A stretch of DNA of 42,660 nt. It comes from Nitrospirae bacterium CG02_land_8_20_14_3_00_41_53. GTDB lineage: Bacteria > Nitrospirota > Thermodesulfovibrionia > Thermodesulfovibrionales > SM23-35. The position numbers and the translations under genes were made by a program. Positions 10,145-36,979 of this stretch are shown here, one piece after another (the first letter of the stretch is position 1; each line of letters starts with the position of its first letter). The stretch is from assembly GCA_002780895.1 (NCBI GenBank), contig PEUB01000063.1, forward strand, positions 1 to 42,660, read 5' to 3'. A model generated the notes under the pieces. The model made no database searches, had not been told where the DNA came from, and worked only from the letters and a program-made list of their open reading frames with translations.

Positions 10145-11389
10145 TTAAACTCCAAATTTTTTAAAAAGAAGACAGGCATTGGTTCCACCGAAGCCGAACG
10201 AATTTGATAAGGCATAATTAACTGTCATTCTTCTTGATTTATAAGGTACATAATCGAGGTCACATTTAGGGTCTGGTTTGTCCAGATTTATCGTTGGCGG
10301 AATAATATCATTGTAAATACTTAAAATAACTATAACTGCTTCAACACCCCCTGCTGCACCGAGCAAATGACCTATCATAGATTTTGTTGAACTGATTGCT
10401 ACCTTATAAGCATGCTCTCCAAAAACTGTTTTTATAGCATTGGTTTCGATCTCATCTCCATATTTTGTGGAGGTACCATGGGCATTTATGTAATCCACCT
10501 CTGAAGGATTAACGCTTCCATCCTTCAGGGTTATTTTCATACATCTTGCAGCACCCTCTCCACCAGGAGCAGGAGCAGTTATATGGTATGCATCAGCTGT
10601 CATACCATATCCGACTATCTCTGCATATATCTTTGCGCCTCTATCCATAGCGCTCTCGAGGCTCTCAAGTATTACGATGCCAGCACCCTCTCCCATCACA
10701 AAACCGTCTCTATCAATGTCAAATGGTCTACTTGCCTTTTCTGGTTCATCGTTTCTTGTTGACAATGTCTTCATCGCATTAAATCCGCCTATACCCAAAG
10801 GTGTTATTACTGCCTCTGTGCCCCCGGCAATCATGGCATCTGCATCGCCCCTTTGAATAATCTTATACGCATCTCCGATTGAATGACTTCCTGTAGCACA
10901 GGCCGTAGCCACTGCAGAGTTTGGCCCTTTAGCTCCAATTTTAATTGATATCTGTCCAGAAGCAAGATTTATTACCAGCATAGGAATAAAAAAAGGAGAA
11001 ATCCTCCTCGGCCCCTTCTCAAGAAAAACAGAATGGTAATGTTCGATTGCATGCAGCCCACCTATGCCGGATCCAACAACCACCCCCACCTTCTCTGCAT
11101 TGCTATCTGTTATCTTCAGCCCAGAATCATTTATCGCCATTTTTGCTGCAGCAATGGCAAAATGGATAAACCGGTCCATCTTCTTTATATCTTTTGGCTC
11201 GATGTAATCTTCAGGGTTAAAACCTTCTACTTCACCTGCTATCTGTGTTGGGAAGTTAGAAGAGTCAAAATGGGTGATCCTTCTTATACCTGGTCTGCCT
11301 GCGATAAGGCTGTTCCAGCTATCTTCAACACCAATACCAAGTGGTGTAATCATGCCCAACCCTGTCACTACAACTCTTTTTTTATCCAT
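10145..11389 (-). CDS. fabF: 3-oxoacyl-[ACP] synthase II (FabF)
   Basis: Condensing enzyme of type II fatty-acid elongation (malonyl-ACP plus acyl-ACP). 414 residues of thiolase fold starting [18 protein letters not shown]. Catalytic residues: Cys in [13 protein letters not shown] (about 165), His in [11 protein letters not shown] (about 305) and His in [13 protein letters not shown] (about 341). It lies 18 nt after acpP and just before rnc. A second, diverged FabF is encoded at 35726-36979; this copy is the housekeeping one because of its cluster. Confidence 0.96.
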
Positions 11390-27136: not shown

Positions 27137-29092
27137 CTAACCTTCGTACATCACCTTTCCCATATCTGATATATCATATCCTCCAAGTCGTATTACCATA
27201 TCCCTGAACTCAGTATCTTCCCTTATTATCCTTACAAGACACCGGAGCATCTCTGCCTTAAAGAATTCTTGAGGGATTGCAAGGTCATATCTTTCTTTGG
27301 CAATAGGAATGAAATCGAGATTTAGTGCCCTCGCAGATGCAAGGATAGCAAGCCCTGTGTCTGCAACACCTGTAAGCACTGCAGATGCAACACCCATATG
27401 TGTGTATTCCTCCCTTTCATAACCTTTAACATCTTTGGGGGTTATACCAAGTTCTCTCAAACATTTATCTGTAAGAAGCCTTGTTCCTGCACCTGACTGT
27501 CTGTTAACAAATACAACATCACTTCTTATTAAATCTTCAAACCCCTTTATGTTTTTGGGATTGCCTTTTGGCACAAGAAGACCTTGCTCTCTATAGACAA
27601 GATTTATGAGCAGAATATTTTTATCAGGAAGAAGTCTTTTTATAAATGATACATTGTACTCCCCTGTCTCCTCATCGAGCAGGTGTGTTCCTGCCATATG
27701 TGCCTCGCCCTTTTTTAATGCCAGCAGGCCGCCCATTGAGCCTACATGGGCTGATGAGAGAGAAAACATCGGATACGTCTTCTTTAATATGTTCGCAAGC
27801 AGATCAAGGGCATTATCATGGCTTCCTATACAGACAATTGTATTTTCAATATCGCCTTTAGATCTCATTAGCTCCACATTTATCTCTGTTCCTGCACCAA
27901 TACCCTCAGACATGGCAGGTATTCGAACAAATCCATCAGCACGCACAAGAGACATAAGTACACCTGCTCCACGGCTAATAGGAGTTGCTATAAAATTATC
28001 CCCGACCTTTCCCACCTTCACCCTAAGGAATTCCTCCTGTCCAAGGGTCGATGCAGCCTGCCTTGAAATCTTTGCCCTCAGTATTTCAGGTTCTTCAATC
28101 TCAAGACCCTGCCATTTATAAATAATGGGCTTAGCAAATAGACTAAATGTTATATATGCAGATACTGGATATCCAGGGATGCCAAGGACAGGTTTGCCTC
28201 TTATCAATCCCATAAGAACAGGCTTACCCGGTTTTATACTTACCCCATGAAGTATCACTTCCCCGAGTTCGTTTATAGCATTTGCAGTAAAGTCCTCTGA
28301 ACCAGCAGATGCACCTGCATTAATAACAATCAAATCTCCCATGCCATGGGCATCGAGTATTGCCTTTTTCAGTTCTTCGATCCTGTCTGGTATAATCCTG
28401 AACCTGACAGGCCTGCCTCCCCATTCAGAGACAAGTCCACCGAGAACTCTTGAGTTGTATTCGATAATATCCCCCTTTTTTAATTCAGTGCCTGGTTCTA
28501 CAATCTCTGTACCTGTAGGGATAATAACTACTTTTGGTCTTTTCCTAACCACCACCTCTATATGCCCACCTGCAAGCATTGCACCTATGTCAACAGGCCT
28601 TATACTATGATTTTCAGGGAGTATTAATTCGGTTGCCACGATATCTTCACCAATAACCCTTACATGCTGCCAGGGTGTCGCAGGTGCAATAATTTCAATA
28701 AAGTCATTGCTCTGTGCTCTATGCTCTATGCTCTGTGCTTTAATTATATTCACATCCTCAATCATTATCACAGCATTAAACCCTTCAGGCATAGGATCGC
28801 CAGTATCAACATAAACTGCCTGATCTCCTATTTTCAGTCTCTTTGGAGTTCTCTCTGAAACACCAAAGGTATCTGCAAATCTTACAGCATAGCCGTCCAT
28901 TGCTGATGAGTGATAAAAGGGAGAAGAGATTTTTGCGATAACTGCCTCTGCAGTAACCCTTTCGAGAGAATCTATAACCTTGATTGTTTCACCTGAGAGG
29001 GGCCTGACAATCCCTTCAGAATCAAGCCTTTTAAGCCACTTTGTCAGTGCCTCATGTAAAGGTGTGCTTTCAAGATAAATATCCGGGGACAT
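27137..29092 (-). CDS. MoeA-type molybdopterin molybdenumtransferase fused to a PBP-like domain
   Basis: 651 residues in two parts. Residues about 5-410 are MoeA (SSPFYHSSAMDGYAVRFAD, VDTGDPMPEGFNAVIMIEDV, NSRVLGGLVSEWGG, VINAGASAGSEDF and GIPGYPVSAYI), which inserts molybdate into adenylylated molybdopterin. Residues about 420-645 form a periplasmic-binding-like/LysR-substrate-like domain (SHDNALDLLANIL, GSMGGLLALKKGEAHMAGTHL and VNRQSGAGTRLLTDK) likely to sense molybdate or tungstate. The fusion is known in archaea and anaerobes. It starts at a TAATG overlap with the response regulator. An odd KAQSIEHRAQS insert near residue 120 is coded by a heptanucleotide array. Confidence 0.9.
   Translation of the reverse strand: MSPDIYLESTPLHEALTKWLKRLDSEGIVRPLSGETIKVIDSLERVTAEAVIAKISSPFYHSSAMDGYAVRFADTFGVSERTPKRLKIGDQAVYVDTGDPMPEGFNAVIMIEDVNIIKAQSIEHRAQSNDFIEIIAPATPWQHVRVIGEDIVATELILPENHSIRPVDIGAMLAGGHIEVVVRKRPKVVIIPTGTEIVEPGTELKKGDIIEYNSRVLGGLVSEWGGRPVRFRIIPDRIEELKKAILDAHGMGDLIVINAGASAGSEDFTANAINELGEVILHGVSIKPGKPVLMGLIRGKPVLGIPGYPVSAYITFSLFAKPIIYKWQGLEIEEPEILRAKISRQAASTLGQEEFLRVKVGKVGDNFIATPISRGAGVLMSLVRADGFVRIPAMSEGIGAGTEINVELMRSKGDIENTIVCIGSHDNALDLLANILKKTYPMFSLSSAHVGSMGGLLALKKGEAHMAGTHLLDEETGEYNVSFIKRLLPDKNILLINLVYREQGLLVPKGNPKNIKGFEDLIRSDVVFVNRQSGAGTRLLTDKCLRELGITPKDVKGYEREEYTHMGVASAVLTGVADTGLAILASARALNLDFIPIAKERYDLAIPQEFFKAEMLRCLVRIIREDTEFRDMVIRLGGYDISDMGKVMYEG
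28709..28736. repeat. Heptanucleotide tandem array inside moeA
   Basis: Four contiguous 7-bp units GCTCTRT (28709-28715, 28716-28722, 28723-28729, 28730-28736), followed by a degenerate GCTTTA. They encode KAQSIEHRAQS-like residues not expected in MoeA. A change of one unit would shift the frame. Confidence 0.85.
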
Positions 29093-35735: not shown

Positions 35736-36979
35736 ATTCTAAAAACCAGTACAGCATTTACTCCGCCAAAACCGAATGAATTAGAAATAGCAAACTTAAT
35801 CTCAGCCCTCCTTGTCTCGGTCACATAATCAAGATCGCATTCAGGGTCTCTCTCTTTCAGGTTGATTGTCGGCGGGATAATTCCTTCGTTCATAGTCATC
35901 AGGGTAAAAGCTGTTTCAAGGGCTCCGGATGCAGCAAGCATATGGCCTGTCAAGGATTTAATAGAAGTTACAGGGATATGATAGGCTCTATTGCCAAATG
36001 ACATCTTTACTGCCACGGTCTCTGTTTTATCACCTAAGGGTGTTGATGTACCATGTGCATTGATAAAATCAATATCTTCAGGATTCAATCCTGCCTCATC
36101 TATTGCTGTCTTTATTGCCTTTGCCTCACCTTCCGGCGATGGTATTGTTTGATGAAATGCATCTGTTGTATTCCCATACCCTAAAATCTCCCCATATATC
36201 CTTGCACCTCTTTTTAATGCACTCTCGTAACCTTCCAAAACAAAGATACATGCACCTTCTGACAGGACAAATCCATCCCTTGTCCTGTCAAACGGCCTGC
36301 TCGCTGAGGAATCATTAACCTTAGATAAAACACCTGATGATCCATATCCTTCAATACATATCCTGCATACAGGAGCCTCGGCACCACCACATAACACAGG
36401 ACCCCGATAGCCTGACCTGATTAATCTATAAGCCTCCCCTACTGCATTTGTGCCTGACGCACATGCATTGGATATACCGAGACAGTAGCCTTTTATACTA
36501 AGTTTTTGAGCGACATAAGACGAGGCCATGCCGATCATTGTTGAGGGCATAAGATAGGCAGATGTTCTTGATGCGTGACGCGTAATGCTTGTTAAGTATT
36601 TCTTTTTCAATTCTTTTTCTATTGTGCTTATGCCACCGCGGCTTGAACCAATAATAACCCCGCCCATATCGAGTGACGAGTGACAAGTGACAAGTGACGA
36701 GTTAAAAGAAATCAATCCTGCATCTTCTGCTGCCATCATTGCTGCTGCAACAGCATAATGCACAAATGGGTCAAGACGGTTTATCTCTTTTAGAGAAAGA
36801 TATTTCCCTGCATAAAATCCTTTCAACTCTCCTGCGACCTTCCAACTTACATCAGAGACATCAAATTTTGTTATAGGACATATGCCTGACAGCCCTGCCT
36901 TTGTTGCTTCCCATGATTCATTAAATGAATTTCCAAGAGGACTAACAGCACCGATACCTGTCACAACAACCCGATTCAT
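35726..36979 (-). CDS. Second beta-ketoacyl-ACP synthase II (FabF-like)
   Basis: A 417-residue condensing enzyme with the full triad: Cys in ISNACASGTNAVGEA, His in [15 protein letters not shown] and His in KSLTGHMLAASGALE. It is a diverged paralogue of the fabF at 10145 and stands alone, so it may serve a special acyl product. Two stretches absent from typical FabF (SSLVTCHSSL near residue 100 and SITRHASRTS near 133) are encoded by 7-bp tandem repeats. There is no Shine-Dalgarno; TATTAT (36988-36993) lies 8 nt before the ATG, suggesting a near-leaderless mRNA. Confidence 0.93.
   Translation of the reverse strand: MNRVVVTGIGAVSPLGNSFNESWEATKAGLSGICPITKFDVSDVSWKVAGELKGFYAGKYLSLKEINRLDPFVHYAVAAAMMAAEDAGLISFNSSLVTCHSSLDMGGVIIGSSRGGISTIEKELKKKYLTSITRHASRTSAYLMPSTMIGMASSYVAQKLSIKGYCLGISNACASGTNAVGEAYRLIRSGYRGPVLCGGAEAPVCRICIEGYGSSGVLSKVNDSSASRPFDRTRDGFVLSEGACIFVLEGYESALKRGARIYGEILGYGNTTDAFHQTIPSPEGEAKAIKTAIDEAGLNPEDIDFINAHGTSTPLGDKTETVAVKMSFGNRAYHIPVTSIKSLTGHMLAASGALETAFTLMTMNEGIIPPTINLKERDPECDLDYVTETRRAEIKFAISNSFGFGGVNAVLVFRIPP
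36570..36698. repeat. Two heptanucleotide arrays inside fabF2
   Basis: Array 1: four units of RAGTGAC at 36671-36698, followed by a degenerate fifth unit. Array 2: three degenerate units of the GATGCGT type at 36570-36590. Both code for residues absent from typical FabF and keep the frame. Confidence 0.8.

Follow-up and report, generated by a model that had tools for sequence, protein, structure and literature searches.

In cyanobacteria, the tRNA-Leu intron and the STRR heptanucleotide repeats consist of 7-bp arrays, some of which sit where a structured molecule has a permissive loop. Long bacterial simple sequence repeats with 7-nt units were described by Mrazek et al. (2007), and polymerase slippage has been proposed to generate them, with units of a multiple of three considered the likeliest inside coding regions, as summarized in PMC4679880. 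The same source describes the TAACTGA repeats of marine Beggiatoaceae as mostly intergenic, located just upstream of start codons, with those in open reading frames (ORFs) found mainly near protein ends. The GGGAATC and GGGGAYT repeats of Xanthomonas and Nostoc are characterized as G-rich and quadruplex forming (PMC4692102), and the Rickettsia palindromic elements are presented as sequences of about 150 bp that reside in frame in conserved genes, a position described as compatible with the function of the proteins (PMC10969869). Both the excess of heptanucleotide repeats in bacteria and its explanation by slippage are known already (PMC4679880, PMC4692102).

The window analyzed here, that is, the whole 42,660-bp stretch of contig PEUB01000063.1 from a Nitrospirae bacterium (hereafter, the host genome), encodes a paralogue of the condensing enzyme FabF that we denote FabF2 (Table 1). 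This protein contains the N- and C-terminal ketoacyl-synthase domains (PF00109 and PF02801, above the Pfam cut-off), its predicted structure has a mean pLDDT of 83.5 and a pTM of 0.89, and a Foldseek comparison of the model with solved FabF structures gives TM values of about 0.9 (between 0.86 and 0.90 for the first 50 matches when normalized by query length). The residues C173, H309, K341 and H346, which we take to be the Cys-His-His triad and the active-site lysine of FabF (KAS II), are invariant in 33 aligned sequences, and the enzyme presumably works despite the extra residues in its loops. Relative to the solved FabF 5sxo, there are 7 additional residues at the array of site 1 and 4 at site 2, and the original prediction of two short insertions in a condensing enzyme therefore holds. 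Site 1 is placed between the helix that ends in MAAEDAGL and the strand GVIIGSS, and site 2 comes after GGISTIEK; their positions in the FabF fold and their variability suggest that both are surface loops (residues 91-100 have a mean model confidence of 77, residues 131-140 one of 59).

Table 1. Features of the window discussed in the text, with coordinates counted from its first base
Feature	Coordinates	Strand	Basis
Canonical FabF paralogue, internal control (1,221-bp match)	10145..11389	-	Sequence search
moeA with a fused periplasmic-binding-protein-like domain; the other gene that has a coding heptamer array	27137..29092	-	Domain search
AGAGCAY array, variable loop of the MoeA N-terminal region	28708..28739	-	Tandem Repeats Finder
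FabF2, FabF-like beta-ketoacyl-ACP synthase, paralogue, 417 aa	35726..36979	-	Domains, solved-FabF alignment, Foldseek
Site 2 variable loop, residues 123-139, 17 aa	36563..36613	-	Orthologue alignment
Degenerate GATGCGT stretch (coding strand ACGCATC)	36570..36588	-	Codon register common to relatives' arrays; not significant alone
11-bp near-duplication TTCTTTTTCAA at the edge of site 2	36600..36623	-	Tandem Repeats Finder
Site 1 variable loop, residues 90-106, 17 aa	36662..36712	-	Orthologue alignment
RAGTGAC heptanucleotide array (coding strand GTCACTY), 4.7 copies	36670..36702	-	Tandem Repeats Finder, shuffles

The RAGTGAC array of site 1, as originally predicted, is real: 24 of its 26 positions match at distance 7, compared to 20 of 26 in the best of 200 second-order Markov shuffles of the window and at most 18 of 26 for the other periods from 4 to 12 in the real window, and Tandem Repeats Finder reports a period of 7 with 92% matches. 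It is a heptanucleotide simple sequence repeat in the usual sense of a tandem 7-nt unit that extends beyond chance. The GATGCGT stretch of site 2 had been put forward as a degenerate three-copy array; taken alone, it is not significant, with 9 of 12 matches, a level that is reached by 97 stretches in the window and by a mean of 31 (8-52) in 20 shuffles, and it is absent from the Tandem Repeats Finder output for the window (score 30). Three relatives (L013, L118 and L122) carry crisp ACGCATC arrays at the codons of the host stretch and, because the codon register is the same, we read the host stretch as a decayed relative of those arrays, as the register suggests. The near-duplication TTCTTTTTCAA next to it encodes part of IEKELKKKY, the lysine-rich start of the site 2 loop. 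The further claim of three coding heptamer arrays in two genes is borne out for RAGTGAC in fabF2 and for AGAGCAY in moeA, and for the GATGCGT stretch only to the extent that its register is that of the arrays in the relatives. The moeA loop could be parsed in 27 of 30 loci, the host gene among them, and shows a period of 7 in 8 of the 27 and a period of 14 in 2; the moeA loop of L231 packs GTCAGAA, a palindrome, and GTCAGCA and GAACTCC arrays together.

For the two FabF2 loops, we compared 110 loci, namely the 30 matches with a locus from 61 searched genomes (29 relatives and the host gene) and the best 80 of 439 relatives, with titles mostly reading Nitrospirae, Nitrospirota or Thermodesulfovibrionales. 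A regular expression parsed 95 of these loci (15 were missed), 74 of them distinct; loop 1 was cut too long in L122, L130, L140, L148 and L151, which was corrected for the turnover count in most of these, L151 excepted. Among the 74 distinct orthologues, the shortest loop 1 has 4 residues and the longest more than 40, and loop 2 has 6 to 36. Loop DNA was scored for periods 4 to 15 and called periodic at a score of at least 11. At this threshold, 28 site 1 loops are periodic, with period 7 in 24, period 8 in 2 and period 14 in 2, and 17 site 2 loops are periodic, with period 7 in 14, period 9 in 2 and period 14 in 1; at a score of at least 9, period 7 accounts for 16 of the 21 periodic site 2 loops. 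Among 1,256 control windows from elsewhere in the FabF2 genes or their near flanks (60 bases each, the loops being of varying length), none showed period 7 and two were periodic, with periods 6 and 14, at a score of at least 11. The two loops are hot spots for period-7 arrays, and the repeats include TCACTCG, TCACTCA, GAGCAAY, GTCAGAA and ACGCATC as well as CAGCTAT, GTTCACG, CTATCGC, GAACTCC and CTGTCAA. The relatives are mostly Nitrospirota, with several named Thermodesulfovibrionales.

The canonical FabF paralogue served as an internal control: its match is exactly 1,221 bp long in 50 of 62 rows and 1,212-1,227 bp in the rest (these rows form the full-length band at about 42-49% identity, chosen by eye, and other paralogues were left out), compared to 1,158-1,299 bp for FabF2 (28 rows, exclusive of the 1,251-bp host gene and one partial match). 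Palindromes, several of them reading PPxPPxxKGGxxGG, are found in or beside heptamer arrays of the fabF2 and moeA loops (L231, L007, L175, L023, L033 and L129).

The content of both loops turns over. On a quick tree of the 74 FabF2 proteins with the loops removed (of its 71 inner branches, 28 are open), the 25 array-bearing rows at site 1 contain 17 heptamers and imply at least 23 state changes, and the 15 array-bearing rows at site 2 contain 10 heptamers and imply at least 10 state changes. Three orthologues that are 87-89% identical outside the loop-bearing stretch hold three different site 1 contents, namely GAGCAAY (L016), CAGCTAT (L124) and GTCAGAA around a palindrome (L175), and two others that are 94.7% identical there have loops of 10 and 43 amino acids (L008 and L033). 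Other arrays seem to be old: the TCAC step of the host array occupies the same codons in 7 of 11 site 1 loops of 17 residues (L004-L006, L026, L141, L183 and L188) and extends to sequences that are only 54-55% identical to the host FabF2, with TCACTYG giving way to TCACTCA or TCACGCA as the unit. In the remaining four loops of this length (L025, L027, L031 and L145), no array reaches the threshold. Given the same-register array in 7 of these 11 loops, the possibility that the inserted residues are standard in FabF homologues and encoded by unrelated DNA was rejected. Units are 0.79 identical within an array (42 comparisons) and 0.70 identical between lineages for the corresponding unit (76 comparisons), a contrast that may be taken as a modest sign of concerted change.

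Array-sharing relatives have loops of equal length, both at site 1 (L004-L006, L013/L118, L026/L141 and L183/L188) and at site 2 (L013/L118/L122, L023/L143 and L028/L148/L151), and no change in copy number between homologous arrays was detected in the compared loops of these relatives. At site 1, L148 and L151 differ, and L122 exceeds L013 by 7 residues that come from a separate 8-bp repeat. Because the array-sharing relatives have equal loop lengths, slippage inside genes was not directly observed.

Outside these genes, the genomes of the order make heptamers widely. The pattern (AGTNNNN)x5 is present in 90 of 176 genomes, with 14+9 = 23 matches in the host genome, compared to 39 of 176 genomes, and 0+2 = 2 host matches, for a period-8 version of the same AGT anchor. 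The latter was used in place of a reversed RAGTGAC pattern, which is no clean negative because it proved to be a heptamer family itself. In a 349-kb sample of the genome G032, we found 36 period-7 arrays, followed by periods 8 and 14 with 5 each, whereas the samples of the host (arbitrary contigs), G005, G014, G028 and G024 yielded 2, 2, 0, 1 and 0, respectively; thus, the load varies greatly between genomes. Considering that period 7 accounts for only 2 of the 19 arrays of periods 4-30 in the arbitrary host sample and for none in the G014 and G024 samples, it is not dominant everywhere. Arrays of 8-bp units (AGTGAGTT, AGTGTCAA and AGTGATGG) occur in genomes of the order (G026, G087, G089 and G090), and the favored repeat step may differ between lineages. 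Across 45 heptamers, a weak shared motif, TSANRRB, is apparent (information of 4.09 compared to 3.30-3.60 in 10 random sets).

The genome-wide load is linked to the loops. Across 30 genomes, the best loop score correlates with the load (Spearman coefficient of 0.72, p=7e-6, uncorrected for kinship and with the FabF2 array itself counted in the load where it fits the pattern), and there is no clear relation between the load and loop length (0.32, p=0.08). A loop array is present in 12 of the 16 genomes with a load of at least 20 and in none of the 14 below this value (a cut chosen post hoc, likewise uncorrected for kinship); the high-load genomes without a loop array are G013, G016, G029 and G051, of which G029 has the second highest load.

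In the G032 sample, crude ORF calls cover 88% of the sequence, and 22 of the 39 AGT/ACT heptamer arrays fall outside them. The arrays are depleted in genes, and the open frames therefore look like the result of selection: in G032 at least, arrays are filtered out of genes and not aimed at them. In the host sample, which is small and comes from contigs partly picked for holding arrays, 4 of 6 AGT/ACT arrays are inside ORFs. The original prediction invoked an active process that spreads 7-bp repeats yet keeps frames open; its first half agrees with the excess of period-7 over period-8 matches across the order and with the dispersal of AGAGCAY in the host genome (see below), and its second half is not supported, given the distribution of the G032 arrays. 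Several of the G032 arrays outside ORFs are inverted pairs between co-directional genes, in which (AGTNNNN)n faces (ACTNNNN)n across about 6-12 bases (L264, 2557-2624; L266, 7670-7742; L268, 17253-17321); these are candidates for long imperfect hairpins with a 7-base rhythm.

The explanation that we favor, and regard as fairly likely, is that heptamer arrays arise genome-wide by slippage-type events and, within genes, last only in a free segment, on an open strand and with the frame kept. Arrays would probably be made across many of these genomes when replication slips, or switches templates, in steps of 7 bases, and a coding array would persist if the protein segment tolerates almost any sequence, if the coding strand is free of stop codons, and if the total length preserves the frame. 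A perfect 7-bp array cycles through the three frames and, therefore, when long enough, is open either in all frames of its strand or in none, so that its length must fit. The two FabF2 loops and the MoeA loop appear to combine all three properties. The site 1 array probably arose before at least two families of the order diverged, and homogenization from unit to unit would keep it periodic while the unit itself shifts; elsewhere, it was apparently lost or swapped for unrelated heptamers, and site 2 of the host genome would be the decayed equivalent. We propose no adaptive role for the loop residues.

Slippage does not explain well the reuse of the same units at many loci. Three copies of AGAGCAY, with at most one mismatch, are found at 12 sites of the host genome (21 matches; none for the reversed control), and three exact copies of RAGTGAC occur in 25 of the 176 genomes, with up to 19 matches in one. 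Among 77 arrays, there are 53 heptamer-sharing pairs, a number that is inflated by inherited arrays, compared to 3.7 expected and a maximum of 12 in 200 simulations. GTTCACG is present both in the moeA loop of G032 (L233) and elsewhere in the sample of the same genome (L259). These observations, along with the different arrays held by the close relatives L016, L124 and L175, point to an alternative under which units move between loci, through recombination, template switching or an unknown element, and the loops take ready-made arrays from a genomic pool. We consider this alternative possible but rather unlikely: equal sharing could result if slippage prefers certain sequences, or from inheritance, and L019 and L127, which have no site 1 array, contain a single GTCACTC where L013 has four, as would fit local expansion or contraction. 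Furthermore, no common flanks are evident by eye around the 12 host AGAGCAY sites; on the same grounds, a single dispersed element with conserved flanks was rejected.

At 7 of the 12 host AGAGCAY sites (the TGCTCTA-array loci L034, L037, L041, L042, L044, L046 and L053, on contigs C15, C55, C28 (three times), C44 and C131), the other strand encodes a hydrophobic (CSMLYAL)n segment near the start of an ORF. Downstream of these segments, Pfam matches include TolB_N, LptE, CXXCH cytochromes, NHL, DUF4382 and FG-GAP, with one of the 7 ORFs lacking a match, and 4 of 15 sites examined by eye in other genomes are similar, including homologues of the host LptE and TolB in G013. The segments are apparently putative signal-peptide cores of exported-type proteins. 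A perfect ATGCTCT array contains a start codon in each frame of its strand and a stop codon in none, and AGAGCAY arrays in the opposite orientation encode hydrophilic loops (AQSIEHR). It is tempting, if speculative, to view heptamer arrays as a supply, spread over the whole genome, from which new protein segments arise, hydrophilic loops and putative signal-peptide cores alike, with the units moved between loci by a copying step.

In other systems, phase variation is driven by heptanucleotide repeats (PMC8262952), but phase variation, or adaptive hypervariability, in which the number of units would switch or retune the enzyme appears very improbable here. An internal stop codon is present in none of the 30 FabF2 matches with a locus, on which count we rejected this explanation; the array-sharing pairs, with one genome per species, are equal in length, the correlation with the load points to a genome-wide mutational cause, and an enzyme of fatty-acid type seems an unlikely contingency gene. 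Selection on the peptide, in which a partner would be bound by the loop residues and the periodicity of the DNA would be a by-product, is similarly hard to credit: alike residues recur in the 17-residue site 1 loops (NSSLVTCHSSL, NSSLITHHFSL and DASRITHH), but this likeness goes with the common heptamer register, and in many lineages the corresponding position carries unrelated residues or a short loop.

The two homologous FabF2 loops amount to a natural experiment in which arrays have been tried, lost and replaced across dozens of lineages while the active-site residues stayed conserved. They offer a way of measuring what repeat-generating mutation contributes to protein evolution, and may help show why seven is the favored step and whether repeats can build secretion signals. 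The same observations carry a warning: in these genomes, loops and N-terminal extensions that are specific to a lineage may be products of repeats and not adaptations.

The new aspect of these arrays is the repeated refilling of homologous enzyme loops with unrelated heptamers, for which we found no earlier report in the open-licence literature. The 7-nt repeats of the Mrazek type, as summarized in the source cited above, are similar in having heptanucleotide units that spread genome-wide in some lineages; the difference is that, here, many units repeatedly occupy homologous loops of conserved enzymes. The TAACTGA repeats, in the description cited, also are 7-bp direct repeats at many sites that are open on one strand, with a minority in ORFs; they represent, however, one mostly intergenic heptamer, whereas the internal FabF2 loops hold many, 17 and 10 at the two coding sites. 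With the repeats of Xanthomonas and Nostoc, the arrays share dispersal and differences in length and sequence between close relatives, although those repeats, as portrayed in PMC4692102, are G-rich, quadruplex forming and studied mainly between genes. The Rickettsia palindromic elements resemble the arrays in placing repeated DNA in frame inside conserved genes but, according to PMC10969869, belong to sequence families of about 150 bp; the host array consists of 7-bp units only, without a conserved palindromic body, and some relatives have palindromes beside their arrays. The permissive-loop setting itself recalls that of cyanobacteria. The tRNA-Leu intron and STRR repeats are found in RNA loops and intergenic DNA, whereas the arrays described here occupy the loops of enzymes.
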